Assembly (NCBI GenBank): GCA_013334925.1
Contig: JAAXWP010000001.1
Span: forward strand, 144,419-181,078
Direction: 5' to 3'
Source of the DNA: Chlorobiaceae bacterium
Lineage (GTDB): Bacteria; Bacteroidota; Chlorobiia; Chlorobiales; Chlorobiaceae
Length of the DNA: 36,660 bases
Made by a program: the position numbers and the translations under genes. Positions 3,094-7,080 of this stretch are shown in pieces; positions within the stretch are counted from its first letter, which is position 1, and each line of letters starts with the position of its first letter. Below the pieces are notes generated by a model. It was not told the DNA's origin. It was given only the letters and a program-made list of their open reading frames with translations, and made no database searches.

Positions 3094-4875
3094 TCAGCGT
3101 TTTCTGGGTTTCTTTTTTGCCGGTGGCATCGGTTTCACTGGTGCCGGCTGCTTGCCAGCTACGGGGAGCCTGAATGACGGTACCTGGGTGGTCCAACCCT
3201 GGCGGACATTCGCTTCGACGGCGATGAACGGGTCGGCAGGCCTGAACGGGTCGATCGATCCGGCATTCCATTCAGGGGTCTGAAGTGAAGCAGGTCCGGG
3301 AGCCGGGGCAAAAGCGAAAATGGTATAGTTGCCCGGAGGAAGTCCGGTGAACGAGTAGCTGAAAGCGCCTCCGGCCGATGGGCGGACGATGCGCCTGAAA
3401 ACCATGTTCGTACCAGATCTACGGGCTTCGATGACGGTGACCGCTCCCGAGGAGATCCCGGTACCGGTGATCTCGCCATACTGCGCGGAAATCGCCGCGC
3501 TGAATCGGGACACCACCAGGGTATCTTTGCCTTTTGATCCAAGAAGTGTGGTGACGAGTGAGGGGTGTACGGATACTTTGTAATCGGTACCGGATTCGAA
3601 GCCGGAGACCGGCCTGACTGTCCAGGTTCGGCTGTCGTATCTCGAAACGGTCACCGGCACCGTCTGTTCTCCTCCATTGCGGATGGCTTTCAGGTTGACG
3701 GCTCTCCTGATTGACGCCTCTTCGACTGGCAGGTTGCACTGCAGCTCGATGCAGGGGCCGGCATCCGGTCTGACCATGTCGAGCAGGGCATTGATGGCCT
3801 TGTCGGGCGGGAAGATGCTGATCGTAAGTGGTGGCCAGTTCGCCGGGCGCAAGCCTCCGAGGAAGGTCAGCTCCTCGGGAGTGGTTTTTGCTCCTTCGGT
3901 CTGGAATGCAATTGTGTACTGCGATTTCGGATTCATGACCCCGGTCTGCAACCTGAAGGTCTGTTCCTCTTCGGCGCGGGTCACACTGTAGTAGCCAGGC
4001 ACCGGAAGCGACGAGCCGGTCGAGAGGTCGCGGATGGAGATTGCCGAAAGGTTCAGGGTACGCGTCGGAACGGGACGGCTGAACTGGATTTCGATTTCAC
4101 TTGTGCTGACAGGTTTTGCCGAGCGGATAGAAACCGGGGTGGTATCTCCCGAAGCGAGGCGGAACGTCAAACCATGCTCCCCGGTGTGGACAGATGACAC
4201 GGCAGAGACGCCGAACTCCTCTTTGAGTCGGTCGAACCGGAGGTTTGAGTTCCGGTCATCGACAGCAACGAGACGGTAGTCGCCGGGGGCCAGGCTTTCG
4301 AAACTGAAATTTCCGTTTGCGTCAGTCTGTGTGGCGTAGTCGGGGGCTGCATTCAGCGAGTCGGCGGCAGACGCCTGCATCTGGCCCGTCGCATATGCCA
4401 TGACCGTGATGTTCGGTGCCGGTGCGAGCTTTCGAGTCCATACCCTTCCATCGAGCGTGCCTCGATCGATTACCGGGCCGGTTGAAAAGGGAAGCGACCA
4501 GCTTGAAGCAAGTTCGTTGCCAAAAAAGCCCTTCAGGGACCTTTTGAGCGTGATCGTGTAGGTTTTTGCCGGATCAAGTGGCGAAAGAAAACGGATCTCT
4601 GCCACCCTGCCATGCATGGTGATCTCGTAGTTTCTGACGACCGGAGAAAATATCAGAGCTTTTCTCACCGCCGGCGAGGTGACATACCGGTTGAACTCGA
4701 TACGGATCGTCCGGGTGGTGACATTGACCGAGCCGGGTTCCGGAGACGATGCGGTAACGGTGAGTGGTTCCTTATCCGGGGGGCCGCCCGTTGGTGGACG
4801 GTCGACGGCGCATGCGGTCGTAAAAAGCGAAATACAGAGAATAGCCAGAGTTTTCAGGCCGGGAAATCGTTTCAC
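3094..4875 (-). CDS. Lipoprotein with Ig-like (Big_5/SbsA) and carboxypeptidase-regulatory-like domains
   Basis: A 593-residue envelope lipoprotein. A signal peptide ends in a lipobox at LFTTAC, with lipidated Cys22. The next residues, VDRPPTGGPPDKEP, are typical of a family common in Bacteroidota and Chlorobi. Residues about 37-132 form an SbsA-type Ig-like domain. Residues about 138-230 look like a carboxypeptidase-regulatory or collagen-binding B-type fold (NGNFSFESLAPGDYRLVAVD). Further Ig-like segments follow, with a second B-type fold near 500-545 and a basic, proline-rich tail (KKKPRKR). The start is GTG, supported by GGGAG 7 nt upstream. It is first in an operon with bchJ. The function is structural or unknown. 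Confidence 0.85.
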   Translation of the reverse strand: MKRFPGLKTLAILCISLFTTACAVDRPPTGGPPDKEPLTVTASSPEPGSVNVTTRTIRIEFNRYVTSPAVRKALIFSPVVRNYEITMHGRVAEIRFLSPLDPAKTYTITLKRSLKGFFGNELASSWSLPFSTGPVIDRGTLDGRVWTRKLAPAPNITVMAYATGQMQASAADSLNAAPDYATQTDANGNFSFESLAPGDYRLVAVDDRNSNLRFDRLKEEFGVSAVSSVHTGEHGLTFRLASGDTTPVSIRSAKPVSTSEIEIQFSRPVPTRTLNLSAISIRDLSTGSSLPVPGYYSVTRAEEEQTFRLQTGVMNPKSQYTIAFQTEGAKTTPEELTFLGGLRPANWPPLTISIFPPDKAINALLDMVRPDAGPCIELQCNLPVEEASIRRAVNLKAIRNGGEQTVPVTVSRYDSRTWTVRPVSGFESGTDYKVSVHPSLVTTLLGSKGKDTLVVSRFSAAISAQYGEITGTGISSGAVTVIEARRSGTNMVFRRIVRPSAGGAFSYSFTGLPPGNYTIFAFAPAPGPASLQTPEWNAGSIDPFRPADPFIAVEANVRQGWTTQVPSFRLPVAGKQPAPVKPMPPAKKKPRKR

Positions 4876-5011
4876 GAATTGTCTCCCTTCGGTGAGTTGA
4901 AGGATAGGGTGCCCCTAAATTGTTTCTCAGCGTGAAAATTCTTAAATTAAAAACTGATGGTATTCTATGAAAGCCTTTTGTTGAAAAAAATATAGCTCCA
5001 CTGTGCAATAG

Positions 5012-6478
5012 ATGGCCAGAAGAAATTTTAAGGTTCTTTATGTCTCTGGCGAAGTTTCTCCTTTTATAAGGGTCAGTTCGCTGGCCGATTATATGGCGTC
5101 CTTTCCCCAGGCTCTTGAAGAAGAGGGCTTCGAGGCGCGGATCATGATGCCCAAATACGGCATCATCAACGACAGAAAGTTCCGACTGCACGACGTACTT
5201 CGCCTCTCTGACATAGAGGTTCGTCTGAAAGAGAAAAGCGACATGCTGCATGTGAAGGTTACGGCCCTTCCCTCCAGCAAGATTCAGACCTACTTTCTCT
5301 ACAACGAGAAATATTTCAAAAGGAACGGTCTCTTCTCCGACATACAGCTCGGAGGAGATCACAAGGCCAGCGCCGAAAAGCTGAGCTTCTTCAGCCTGGG
5401 TGTGATGGAAACGCTCGTTCGCCTTGGCTGGCAGCCCGACATTATCCACTGCCATGACTGGCATGCCGGTCTCGTGCCACTGCTGGTGAAGACCAGATAT
5501 GCCCAGCACGAGTTCTTCAGGAAGGTTAAGGTCGTCCAGACGATCCACAATGCCTATCGTCAGGGAATCTTCCAGGCCAAGGTTCTGCAGAAATATCTTC
5601 CCGACGAGGTTTTCGCAGGTCTTGAAGTGAAGGATGATGAGGTCAACCTGCTCGCCACCGGCGTGAAATATGCCGATCTGGTGACCACGACCTCGAAAAG
5701 TTATGCCCAGGATCTCACCCGTGATGGAAATTTCTCCTGGGGGCTCGATGAGTTGCTCAACGCACGTGGAACGAGCTTCCACGGTATTCGCAACGGCATC
5801 GACACCAGGCAGTGGAACCCGTCGACCGACAAGCTGATCAAGAAGCGCTACAGCGTCGAGCAGCCTGAAATCAAGCTCGAGGACAAGAAGGTGCTGCTTG
5901 AAGAGCTGGGACTGCCGTTCGAGGAGGAAAAACCGGTTGTCGGTGTGCTCGCCAACTTCAATACGATCCAGGGTGGCGAACTCCTTAAGGAGAGTCTTGC
6001 CCGGTTGCTCGAACTCGATATCCAGCTTGTGGTTTTCGGTTCCGGGGAGAAGGAGTATGAGCAGATTTTCAAGGATGCCGCCGAGGAGAATCCCGAAAAG
6101 TTGGCGCTCAGGACCGAGTTCACGGATGCCTTCTATCATCAGATGATGTCAGGTCTGGACATCCTGATTCTGCCCGCGCAGATCGAGGCTTGCGGTATGG
6201 CCCAGATGTTCGCCATGACCTACGGTACCGTTCCGGTGGCCTATGCCGGTGGCGGTATCGTCGAGACGATCGAGGAGATCGATGGCGAAAATGGAACCGG
6301 TTACGTGTTCCGTGACTACACTTCCGATTCCCTCATCGCAAAACTTTCCGAAGCGCTGGCCCTGTATGAGGACCGTGAGCGCTGGGGACGTCTCGTGCTT
6401 GAATGCATGGGCCGTGATTTTTCGTGGAAGAGCTCTGCCGAGGAGTACGGCGAGCTGTACCGGCAACTTCTCGGGTGA
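5012..6478 (+). CDS. glgA: Glycogen synthase-like glycosyltransferase (GT5), Chlorobi type
   Basis: A 488-residue GT5 protein, the usual length for glycogen synthase, which extends alpha-1,4-glucan from ADP-glucose. Fold motifs are kept: SGEVSPF at 12-18, HCHDWHAG at 146-153, RNGIDTRQWNP in the middle, and an acidic active-site loop IEACGMAQMFAM with E392. Several residues normally needed for ADP-glucose binding differ. KTGGL reads RVSSL (20-24), and the R-x4-K pair of the SRLTSQKG loop reads N315 and Q320 (ANFNTIQGG). I recall similar changes in annotated Chlorobium GlgA proteins, so this looks like a lineage trait. No strong ribosome binding site precedes ATG 5012. The gmhB-like gene follows after 5 bases. 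Confidence 0.85.
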   Translation: MARRNFKVLYVSGEVSPFIRVSSLADYMASFPQALEEEGFEARIMMPKYGIINDRKFRLHDVLRLSDIEVRLKEKSDMLHVKVTALPSSKIQTYFLYNEKYFKRNGLFSDIQLGGDHKASAEKLSFFSLGVMETLVRLGWQPDIIHCHDWHAGLVPLLVKTRYAQHEFFRKVKVVQTIHNAYRQGIFQAKVLQKYLPDEVFAGLEVKDDEVNLLATGVKYADLVTTTSKSYAQDLTRDGNFSWGLDELLNARGTSFHGIRNGIDTRQWNPSTDKLIKKRYSVEQPEIKLEDKKVLLEELGLPFEEEKPVVGVLANFNTIQGGELLKESLARLLELDIQLVVFGSGEKEYEQIFKDAAEENPEKLALRTEFTDAFYHQMMSGLDILILPAQIEACGMAQMFAMTYGTVPVAYAGGGIVETIEEIDGENGTGYVFRDYTSDSLIAKLSEALALYEDRERWGRLVLECMGRDFSWKSSAEEYGELYRQLLG

Positions 6479-6483
6479 GTGAG

Positions 6484-7080
6484 ATGGCTCGGAAAACCAG
6501 GGTGCTGTTTCTTGACCGCGACGGGACGATCAACCAGGATCTGGGGACCTATGTCAAATCCCGCGACGAGTTCGTCCTGATCGATCGTGCCGACGAGGCT
6601 ATCGCCGATGCGAGGGCGGCCGGGTTCATGATCGTGATCATCACCAATCAGGCCGGAATCGCGCGAGGCATCGTGACCCCCGAGCAGGTCGAGGACCTGA
6701 ATCGTTATCTCAACGAACTGCTTTCGGTGAAAGGCACGTTCTATGACCGCTGCTATTATTGCCCTTCCCATCCGGATTACCCGCATCCCGAGTACGACCG
6801 TTTCATCGAGTGCCGAAAACCTTCGCCACGCATGGTCGAGCAGGCGATCGAAGATTTCAGGAGTGAAGGGATCGAGGTCGACCGTTCGGGCTCTTTTTTC
6901 ATCGGTGACAAGCTGGTCGACGTCGAGTGCGGACTTCGTGCCGGATTGCGGACGATCCTGGTGCGCACCGGCCATAATGAGGAGGCGCTCTGCATCGAAC
7001 GGGGAGTCCTTCCTGAGCACGTAGCCGACGACCTCTACCAGGCCATAGCCGGCTATGTCCTGCCCTCGGTATCCCGCTGA
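6484..7080 (+). CDS. gmhB: HAD phosphatase, GmhB-like (heptose bisphosphate phosphatase family)
   Basis: A 198-residue HAD-superfamily phosphatase of the HisB-N/GmhB type. GmhB removes the 7-phosphate of D-glycero-manno-heptose 1,7-bisphosphate on the way to LPS core heptose. The catalytic motif is DRDGT (D11, D13), followed by ITNQAGIARG at 53-62, CRKPSPRM at 110-117 and GDKLVDVECG at 141-150. The usual zinc loop CPHHP...CxCRKP reads CPSHP (93-97) and I108-E-C110, so not all zinc ligands are present. I start at ATG 6484, five bases after glgA, because the frame upstream of it only reads glgA out of frame. It forms a short operon with glgA and hemW. Confidence 0.82.
   Translation: MARKTRVLFLDRDGTINQDLGTYVKSRDEFVLIDRADEAIADARAAGFMIVIITNQAGIARGIVTPEQVEDLNRYLNELLSVKGTFYDRCYYCPSHPDYPHPEYDRFIECRKPSPRMVEQAIEDFRSEGIEVDRSGSFFIGDKLVDVECGLRAGLRTILVRTGHNEEALCIERGVLPEHVADDLYQAIAGYVLPSVSR

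Follow-up and report, generated by a model that had tools for sequence, protein, structure and literature searches.

The window, i.e. the whole stretch of 36,660 nucleotides that was analysed, belongs to a member of the Chlorobiaceae and carries an intact open reading frame at positions 5012-6478 of the plus strand, which starts with ATG, has no internal stops and encodes 488 residues. The product is a homologue of the GT5-family glycogen/starch synthases with a decayed donor site, and the gene is the orthologue of a syntenic copy in related families, which is designated copy A in the following. Full-length matches to GT5 models place the protein in this family. In profile searches, it matched TIGR02095 (glgA) with 496 bits (cut-off 328) and, over its full length, the model NF010698 ('starch synthase') with 894 bits (cut-off 754). 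The Pfam families PF08323 and PF00534 were recognised with 214 and 63 bits, respectively. An AlphaFold (AF2) model of the protein (pTM 0.89, mean pLDDT 87) has the GT-B fold of the solved GT5 enzymes, and the nearest solved structures, each with a TM score of 0.88, are those of starch synthase IV (SSIV; 6gne) and of E. coli GlgA with ADP (3cop). Thus, the GT5 fold is intact, as had been stated in a preliminary description of the locus. The gene is followed by a gene for a HAD-IIIA phosphatase resembling GmhB and histidinol phosphatase (6484-7080, plus strand), which marks the orthologous locus in other genomes. A divergently transcribed gene upstream (3094-4875, minus strand) encodes an Ig-like (Big_5) lipoprotein-type protein, a neighbour identified by Pfam and conserved in synteny. 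None of the neighbours of the GT5 gene, i.e. the HAD phosphatase, HemW and a TMEM260-like protein, is a glycogen gene, and the link of the 5012-6478 protein to glycogen is inherited from its family. An open reading frame of 455 codons lies on the minus strand opposite the GT5 gene (4772-6139). It was rejected as a real gene because the open run is not conserved in relatives (median 217 codons, wide range), and it seems to have arisen as a side effect of the codon usage.

The contacts of E. coli GlgA with ADP-glucose and glycogen have been tabulated (PMC6210743) and contacts of the same kind have been described for SSIV and GBSS (PMC6086201). The donor-site residues of the E. coli enzyme include K15, G18, R300, K305, T382 and S360 (PMC6210743), all of which are lost family-wide in the Chlorobiaceae. 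Alignment with GlgA of E. coli K-12 equates K15 with R20, R300 with N315, K305 with Q320 and E377 with E392, which bears out all four assignments of the preliminary description, namely the replacement of the three basic residues and the presence of E392. At positions 5069-5083, the KTGGL loop (E. coli K15, G17 and G18) is replaced by R20-V-S-S-L24. Among the Chlorobiaceae, for which 78-81 orthologues could be read depending on the site, K15 is replaced by Arg and G17 by Ser in 78 out of 78 sequences and G18 by Ala (35), Ser (18), Pro (18) or Gln (7), the loop reading R-x-S-x-L in 78/78. Among the three exchanges, that of K15 is the least severe because the positive charge is kept. At positions 5951-5974, A314-N315-F-N-T-I-Q320-G replaces SRLTSQKG (E. 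coli S299, R300 and K305), and the R-x4-K pair, which contacts the donor phosphates, has become N315 and Q320. The R300 site is occupied by Asn (63), Gly (7), Ser (6), Thr (2) or His (2) and never by Arg or Lys, while K305 is replaced by Gln in 80/80 Chlorobiaceae sequences. T302 is Asp in 77 of 80 relatives and Asn in the window protein. On the nucleotide side, about 80 Chlorobiaceae sequences show the exchanges of S299 for Ala, Ile, Met, Gly, Val or Thr, G354 for Glu or Asp, S360 for Phe, Leu or Tyr and T382 for Ile, Met or Leu. Moreover, P378 is replaced by Ser (55) or Ala (26) and T398 by Gly, and at positions 6248-6259 G413-G-G-I416 replaces TGGL (E. coli 398-401). Judged from these substitutions, the damage to the donor site is wider than the three residues noted at first. 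Misalignment was ruled out because the flanking motifs with H161, N246, E377 and G306 align without gaps and the sister-family orthologues align canonically, and chance or a local sequencing error was ruled out by the substitutions being shared across the Chlorobiaceae sequences. Low model confidence near residue 20 was seen equally in the control model of a canonical orthologue, and disorder of the R20 loop was dropped as evidence for decay.

The residues surrounding the glucose moiety have been retained. Among the Chlorobiaceae, H161 is present in 78/79 sequences, N246 in 80/80 and E377, C379, G380 and G400 in 81/81 each, and the window protein possesses the Glu377, His161 and Asn246 equivalents of a competent synthase. 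H179-N180 (5546-5551) correspond to H161 and N162 of the E. coli enzyme, and E392-A-C394 (6185-6193) to E377-P-C379, the Glu of the catalytic loop being kept and the Pro being lost. K277 is Lys in 77 sequences and Arg in three. On the acceptor side, D149-W150 (5456-5461), the equivalents of D137 and W138, are kept in 79/79 sequences each, and R183 (5558-5560) replaces Y165, which in E. coli GlgA stacks on the acceptor glucose at subsite +2 (PMC6210743). This site is Arg in 79/79 Chlorobiaceae sequences vs Tyr in 26/26 sister-family copies. It is well supported by these patterns that the Chlorobiaceae GT5 proteins have lost the nucleotide-diphosphate site and kept the sugar sites. The stretch comprising residues 41-104 (5132-5323) was also kept after the loss of the donor site. 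Its blocks 41-60 and 81-100, which sit in the N-terminal, acceptor-side domain, show 90% identity between the Chlorobiaceae and the canonical copy A, compared with about 45% overall. Because the third-base variation is normal in this stretch, the constraint acts on the protein, and selection at the DNA level was ruled out.

It is conceivable that the protein still functions as a glycogen synthase whose phosphate site has been compensated for or relocated, which slowly uses ADP-glucose or another NDP-glucose and in which Arg20 and Arg183 provide the positive charge. The retained E377, H161, N246, D137 and K277 equivalents would fit such an enzyme, as would the invariance of R20 and R183 and the strong purifying selection described below. 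However, the nucleotide pocket has changed too (S360, T382 and G354), the R300 site varies freely and the Asp that prevails at position 302 adds negative charge near the phosphate site. Furthermore, the arginine gained at the Y165 position lines acceptor subsite +2 and not the diphosphate (PMC6210743). Hence, conservation gives no sign of a basic residue in the vacated space; such a residue, placed there by a structural alignment, had been named in the preliminary description as evidence against its own reading. Together with the content of the genomes (see below), these observations make a compensated synthase rather unlikely. An enzyme with a new chemistry, which has kept the glucose and acceptor subsites and uses a donor without a nucleotide, would explain why E377 and the other glucose-site residues are invariant and the nucleotide contacts are gone. 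To our knowledge, there is no precedent for the use of a nucleotide-independent donor in GT5. The residues R20, S22, R183 and Q320 do not vary within this diverse family, which suggests that a new site is being maintained. However, retaining GT-B enzymes normally need an Arg and a Lys on the donor phosphate (PMC6086201, PMC11046441), both of which are gone, and we consider a new chemistry very unlikely.

Each of the 98 genomes that were sampled in the class contains a GT5 homologue. The affected family is the Chlorobiaceae, including Chlorobium, Chlorobaculum and Pelodictyon, whereas the Chloroherpetonaceae and the Thermochlorobacteraceae are unaffected. K15, R300 and K305 are absent from every readable Chlorobiaceae orthologue, and the suspicion voiced in the preliminary description, that a lineage-wide shift is hidden under a routine label, has thus proved justified. 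By contrast, 26 out of 26 canonical copies in the sister families keep the Lys, Arg and Lys residues, and 19 copy-A orthologues from these families keep KTGGL, SR-x4-KG, EPCG or EPSG, and TGGL. The HAD phosphatase gene is the same-strand neighbour in 72/73 Chlorobiaceae loci and in 19/19 sister-family copy-A loci. In a maximum-likelihood tree, the Chlorobiaceae sequences form one clade (100/100), which is sister to the canonical copy A and whose stem measures 0.95 changes per site, the later branches being short. A mix-up of paralogues was ruled out because copy A has the HAD neighbour in all of its 19 loci and groups with the Chlorobiaceae. As the syntenic orthologues of the sister families keep all canonical residues, the donor site appears to have been lost once, on the Chlorobiaceae stem. 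Pairwise comparisons of close relatives (53 pairs) gave a median dN/dS of 0.074 and a maximum of 0.144. The long stem, the short later branches and the low dN/dS point to one burst of change, which has been followed by strong purifying selection. The gene is not freely decaying because dN/dS is about 0.07, and a pseudogene was ruled out since, in addition, the open reading frame is intact in nearly all relatives. The earlier remark that the rest of the protein is well conserved holds for the glucose-site residues, but not for the protein as a whole, given the low overall identity to the canonical orthologue, the length of the stem and the exchange of Tyr165 for Arg.

Two copy-A genes of other families in the phylum sample, both on long branches, are also altered. 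One of them (L228, G180:C53:26800-28500) shows the exchanges R300 to Asn, K305 to Arg and KTGGL to KWTDS, and in the other (L222, G102:C20:613350-615050) EPCG has become ETSA. Because both genes have been altered independently, copy A may be prone to losing catalysis, as far as the 20 sequences examined allow such a view.

The protein could also be a sensor that has nothing to do with glycogen and whose ligand is free glucose, a sugar phosphate or some other small molecule. The intact glucose subsite would suit this role, the neighbours of the gene are not glycogen genes and a sensor might account for the two hyperconserved N-terminal blocks. However, the canonical GT5 copies of the sister families have the same neighbourhood, so that the gene context is no sign of a new function, and D137 and W138 have been retained on the acceptor side. 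For these reasons, a sensor of this kind is improbable.

The remaining glycogen genes of these bacteria provide the main context, which had been missed in the preliminary description. GlgC was searched for with TIGR02091 at an E-value of 1e-20 and no match was obtained in any of 86 Chlorobiaceae genomes, while 12 of 14 control genomes gave matches. The sister-family genomes G086-G097 contain only weak GlgC matches of 136-166 bits (cut-off 425) despite having a canonical GT5 protein. In the Chlorobiaceae, a divergent nucleotidyltransferase might nevertheless make ADP-glucose. Neither a second type of GT5 nor a GT3 synthase was recognised in this family, and no GlgM exceeded the cut-off. The genome of the window encodes no other GT5 protein, and its GT4 matches score as ordinary surface-polysaccharide types. 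Thus, the check for a second canonical GlgA or a GlgM-type GT4 synthase, which had been proposed earlier, revealed none, and the idea that another locus of the genome encodes a canonical synthase was rejected. Another Chlorobiaceae genome (G037) carries two GT5 copies, both of the decayed type. By contrast, GlgE was found in 80 of the 86 Chlorobiaceae genomes, and five of the six absences concern genomes that are 77-88% complete. In the genome of the window, glgE and a TreS-maltokinase fusion gene occupy L240:8400-13882 (G000:C83). The GlgE protein (L240:11750-13882) matches the Streptomyces GlgE (4u2y) with 591 bits and has conserved the motifs RVDNPH, LAEAF and NTPDILH. The fusion gene directly follows glgE and scores 885 bits with TIGR02456 and 613 bits with TIGR02457, both over the cut-off. 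The two genes were neighbours in the Chlorobiaceae glgE loci that were read. Hence, GlgE with its catalytic motifs, TreS and maltokinase are present, which are enzymes of the route that leads from trehalose to glycogen via maltose-1-phosphate. The fusion gene is followed by a small gene (L240:7679-8458) that belongs to no family; its counterpart in the genome G019 is a weak Abhydrolase_2 match. GlgE alone does not cause the decay of the GT5 protein because canonical copy A and GlgE co-occur in some sister genomes.

As far as it was recovered, the GlgE route has a gap, since the genome of the window yielded no recognisable branching enzyme, neither a TIGR01515 match for GlgB nor a GH57 enzyme nor another clear GH13 branching enzyme. 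The one weak GH57 match is a deacetylase-like protein and was rejected. Two GH13 proteins of unclear type (L241:7528-9504, 659 aa; L242:7612-9138, 509 aa), which have similarly sized counterparts in other Chlorobiaceae and adjoin riboflavin synthase and dxs, are candidates for the missing branching activity. A GlgB-like match of 255 bits, under the cut-off, occurs at G037:C43:10029-11786 (L099), and this is the sole such genome among the 86. A distantly related alpha-glucan phosphorylase scored 886 bits with TIGR02094, GH77 was found in none of 25 Chlorobiaceae genomes searched and no trehalose source was located. Reviews describe the green sulfur bacteria as accumulating glycogen and as using ADP-glucose for it (PMC11269200, PMC7947596). 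As far as gene content can tell, glycogen accumulation is compatible with the genomes, but the ADP-glucose route is unsupported by them. The genomes also bear on the compensated synthase. That glycogen has been reported in Chlorobium and that the protein is the sole GT5 of the genome would speak for it, while glgC was not found and GlgE would be another polymerase. A nucleotide-independent glucan enzyme, for instance a glucosyl or maltosyl transferase that works with the GlgE system and has formed a new site from R20, S22, R183 and Q320, may be envisaged as well, but is highly improbable.

We regard it as quite likely that the 5012-6478 protein is not an NDP-glucose glycogen synthase. Synthesis from an NDP-glucose is unlikely because the R300 and K305 equivalents, the glycine loop and several contacts to adenine and ribose are lost. 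Catalytic Lys, Arg and Glu residues are conserved across the retaining alpha-glucan GT-B families (PMC11046441), and even GlgM, a GT4 enzyme, keeps the equivalents of R300 and K305 (PMC7137382). Three alternatives had been proposed in the preliminary description. Of these, regulation or binding agrees best with the observations. The alterations extend over the entire nucleotide pocket and even GlgM has kept the equivalents of both residues, which speaks against a switch to another nucleotide sugar as well as against a compensated phosphate site. With a probability somewhat better than even, the protein would be a GT5 pseudoenzyme that binds alpha-glucan, is unable to use a nucleotide sugar and acts as a regulatory or initiation factor. 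Its ancestor would have been an ordinary nucleotide-sugar glycogen synthase, which survives as the syntenic copy A in the Chloroherpetonaceae and Thermochlorobacteraceae. The nucleotide and diphosphate site would have been lost on the Chlorobiaceae stem, while the glucose pocket (H161, N246, E377, C379, G380 and G400), D137/W138 and the two N-terminal blocks were kept. TreS-maltokinase would make maltose-1-phosphate, to which GlgE would owe the maltosyl units that it adds, so that glycogen would be polymerised by the GlgE route. By taking over the job of the synthase, GlgE would have relaxed the selection on the donor site, and the GT5 protein would have been kept for binding the ends of alpha-glucan and would serve the glucan machinery in initiation, targeting or regulation without being a catalyst itself. 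The kept glucose subsite, D137/W138 and the N-terminal blocks suggest the binding of glucan ends and of partners. In short, we infer from the substitutions, their family-wide extent, the purifying selection and the presence of GlgE and TreS-maltokinase that the protein lacks synthase activity, binds glucan and has a regulatory role, and that the glycogen is made by GlgE. However, selection has preserved E377, K277 and, in the form of Arg, K15, although a protein with a purely structural role would not need them. The exchange of Y165 for Arg, which may weaken glucan binding, also counts against a non-catalytic glucan-binding factor, as do the ADP-glucose route described in the reviews, the missing branching enzyme and the trehalose source, which was not located.

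The label glycogen synthase is attached to the proteins of all green sulfur bacteria sampled, and the activity that it implies is not supported by the residues. These bacteria, which carry the GlgE route, probably possess a selected, family-wide GT5 pseudo-synthase. If this is true, a major group of anoxygenic phototrophs is represented in metabolic models with an incorrect storage route. Moreover, an intact and selected bacterial pseudoenzyme of the glycogen synthase type would be a simple counterpart of the plant STARCH SYNTHASE 5 (SS5), and the role of a synthase fold in glycogen metabolism without catalysis would become directly testable. The Chlorobiaceae and their canonical sister families offer a clean natural comparison for this purpose.

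The window protein resembles E. coli GlgA (GT5; 2qzs, 3cop) in the GT-B fold, in aligning over the full length and in the equivalents of E377, H161, N246, D137, D21 and K277. It differs from it in that K15, G17, G18, R300, K305 and most of the nucleotide contacts are replaced and that the genome lacks glgC. The protein is also a full-length member of NF010698 (PRK14098, NCBIfam), but the name 'starch synthase' asserts an activity that is unsupported by its residues. The Arabidopsis SS5 is reported to have no enzymatic activity and to promote granule initiation (PMC10801857, PMC11772324). The likeness to this GT5-type protein is one of logic, as both would be kept without catalysis. However, SS5 acts beside active synthases and MRC, whereas the Chlorobiaceae protein, which has lost its donor site, is the sole GT5 that the cell possesses. 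The Waddliaceae and Criblamydiaceae are similar in that they lack glgC, have a classical route that is regarded as inoperative and possess the GlgE route (TreS-Mak, GlgE). In Waddlia and Estrella glgC has been lost, Estrella has also lost the GlgA activity and the GlgE route is present (PMC7935935). In these families, GlgA is fused to GlgB, being active in Waddlia and truncated by a stop in Estrella (PMC7935935), whereas the Chlorobiaceae GT5 protein is intact, under selection and altered in its donor site across the whole family. Finally, the GT4 maltose-1-phosphate synthase GlgM is another GlgA homologue of bacteria with the GlgE pathway that is not a glycogen synthase. In contrast to the window protein, which belongs to GT5 and lacks both basic residues, GlgM keeps the R300 and K305 equivalents and uses ADP-glucose.
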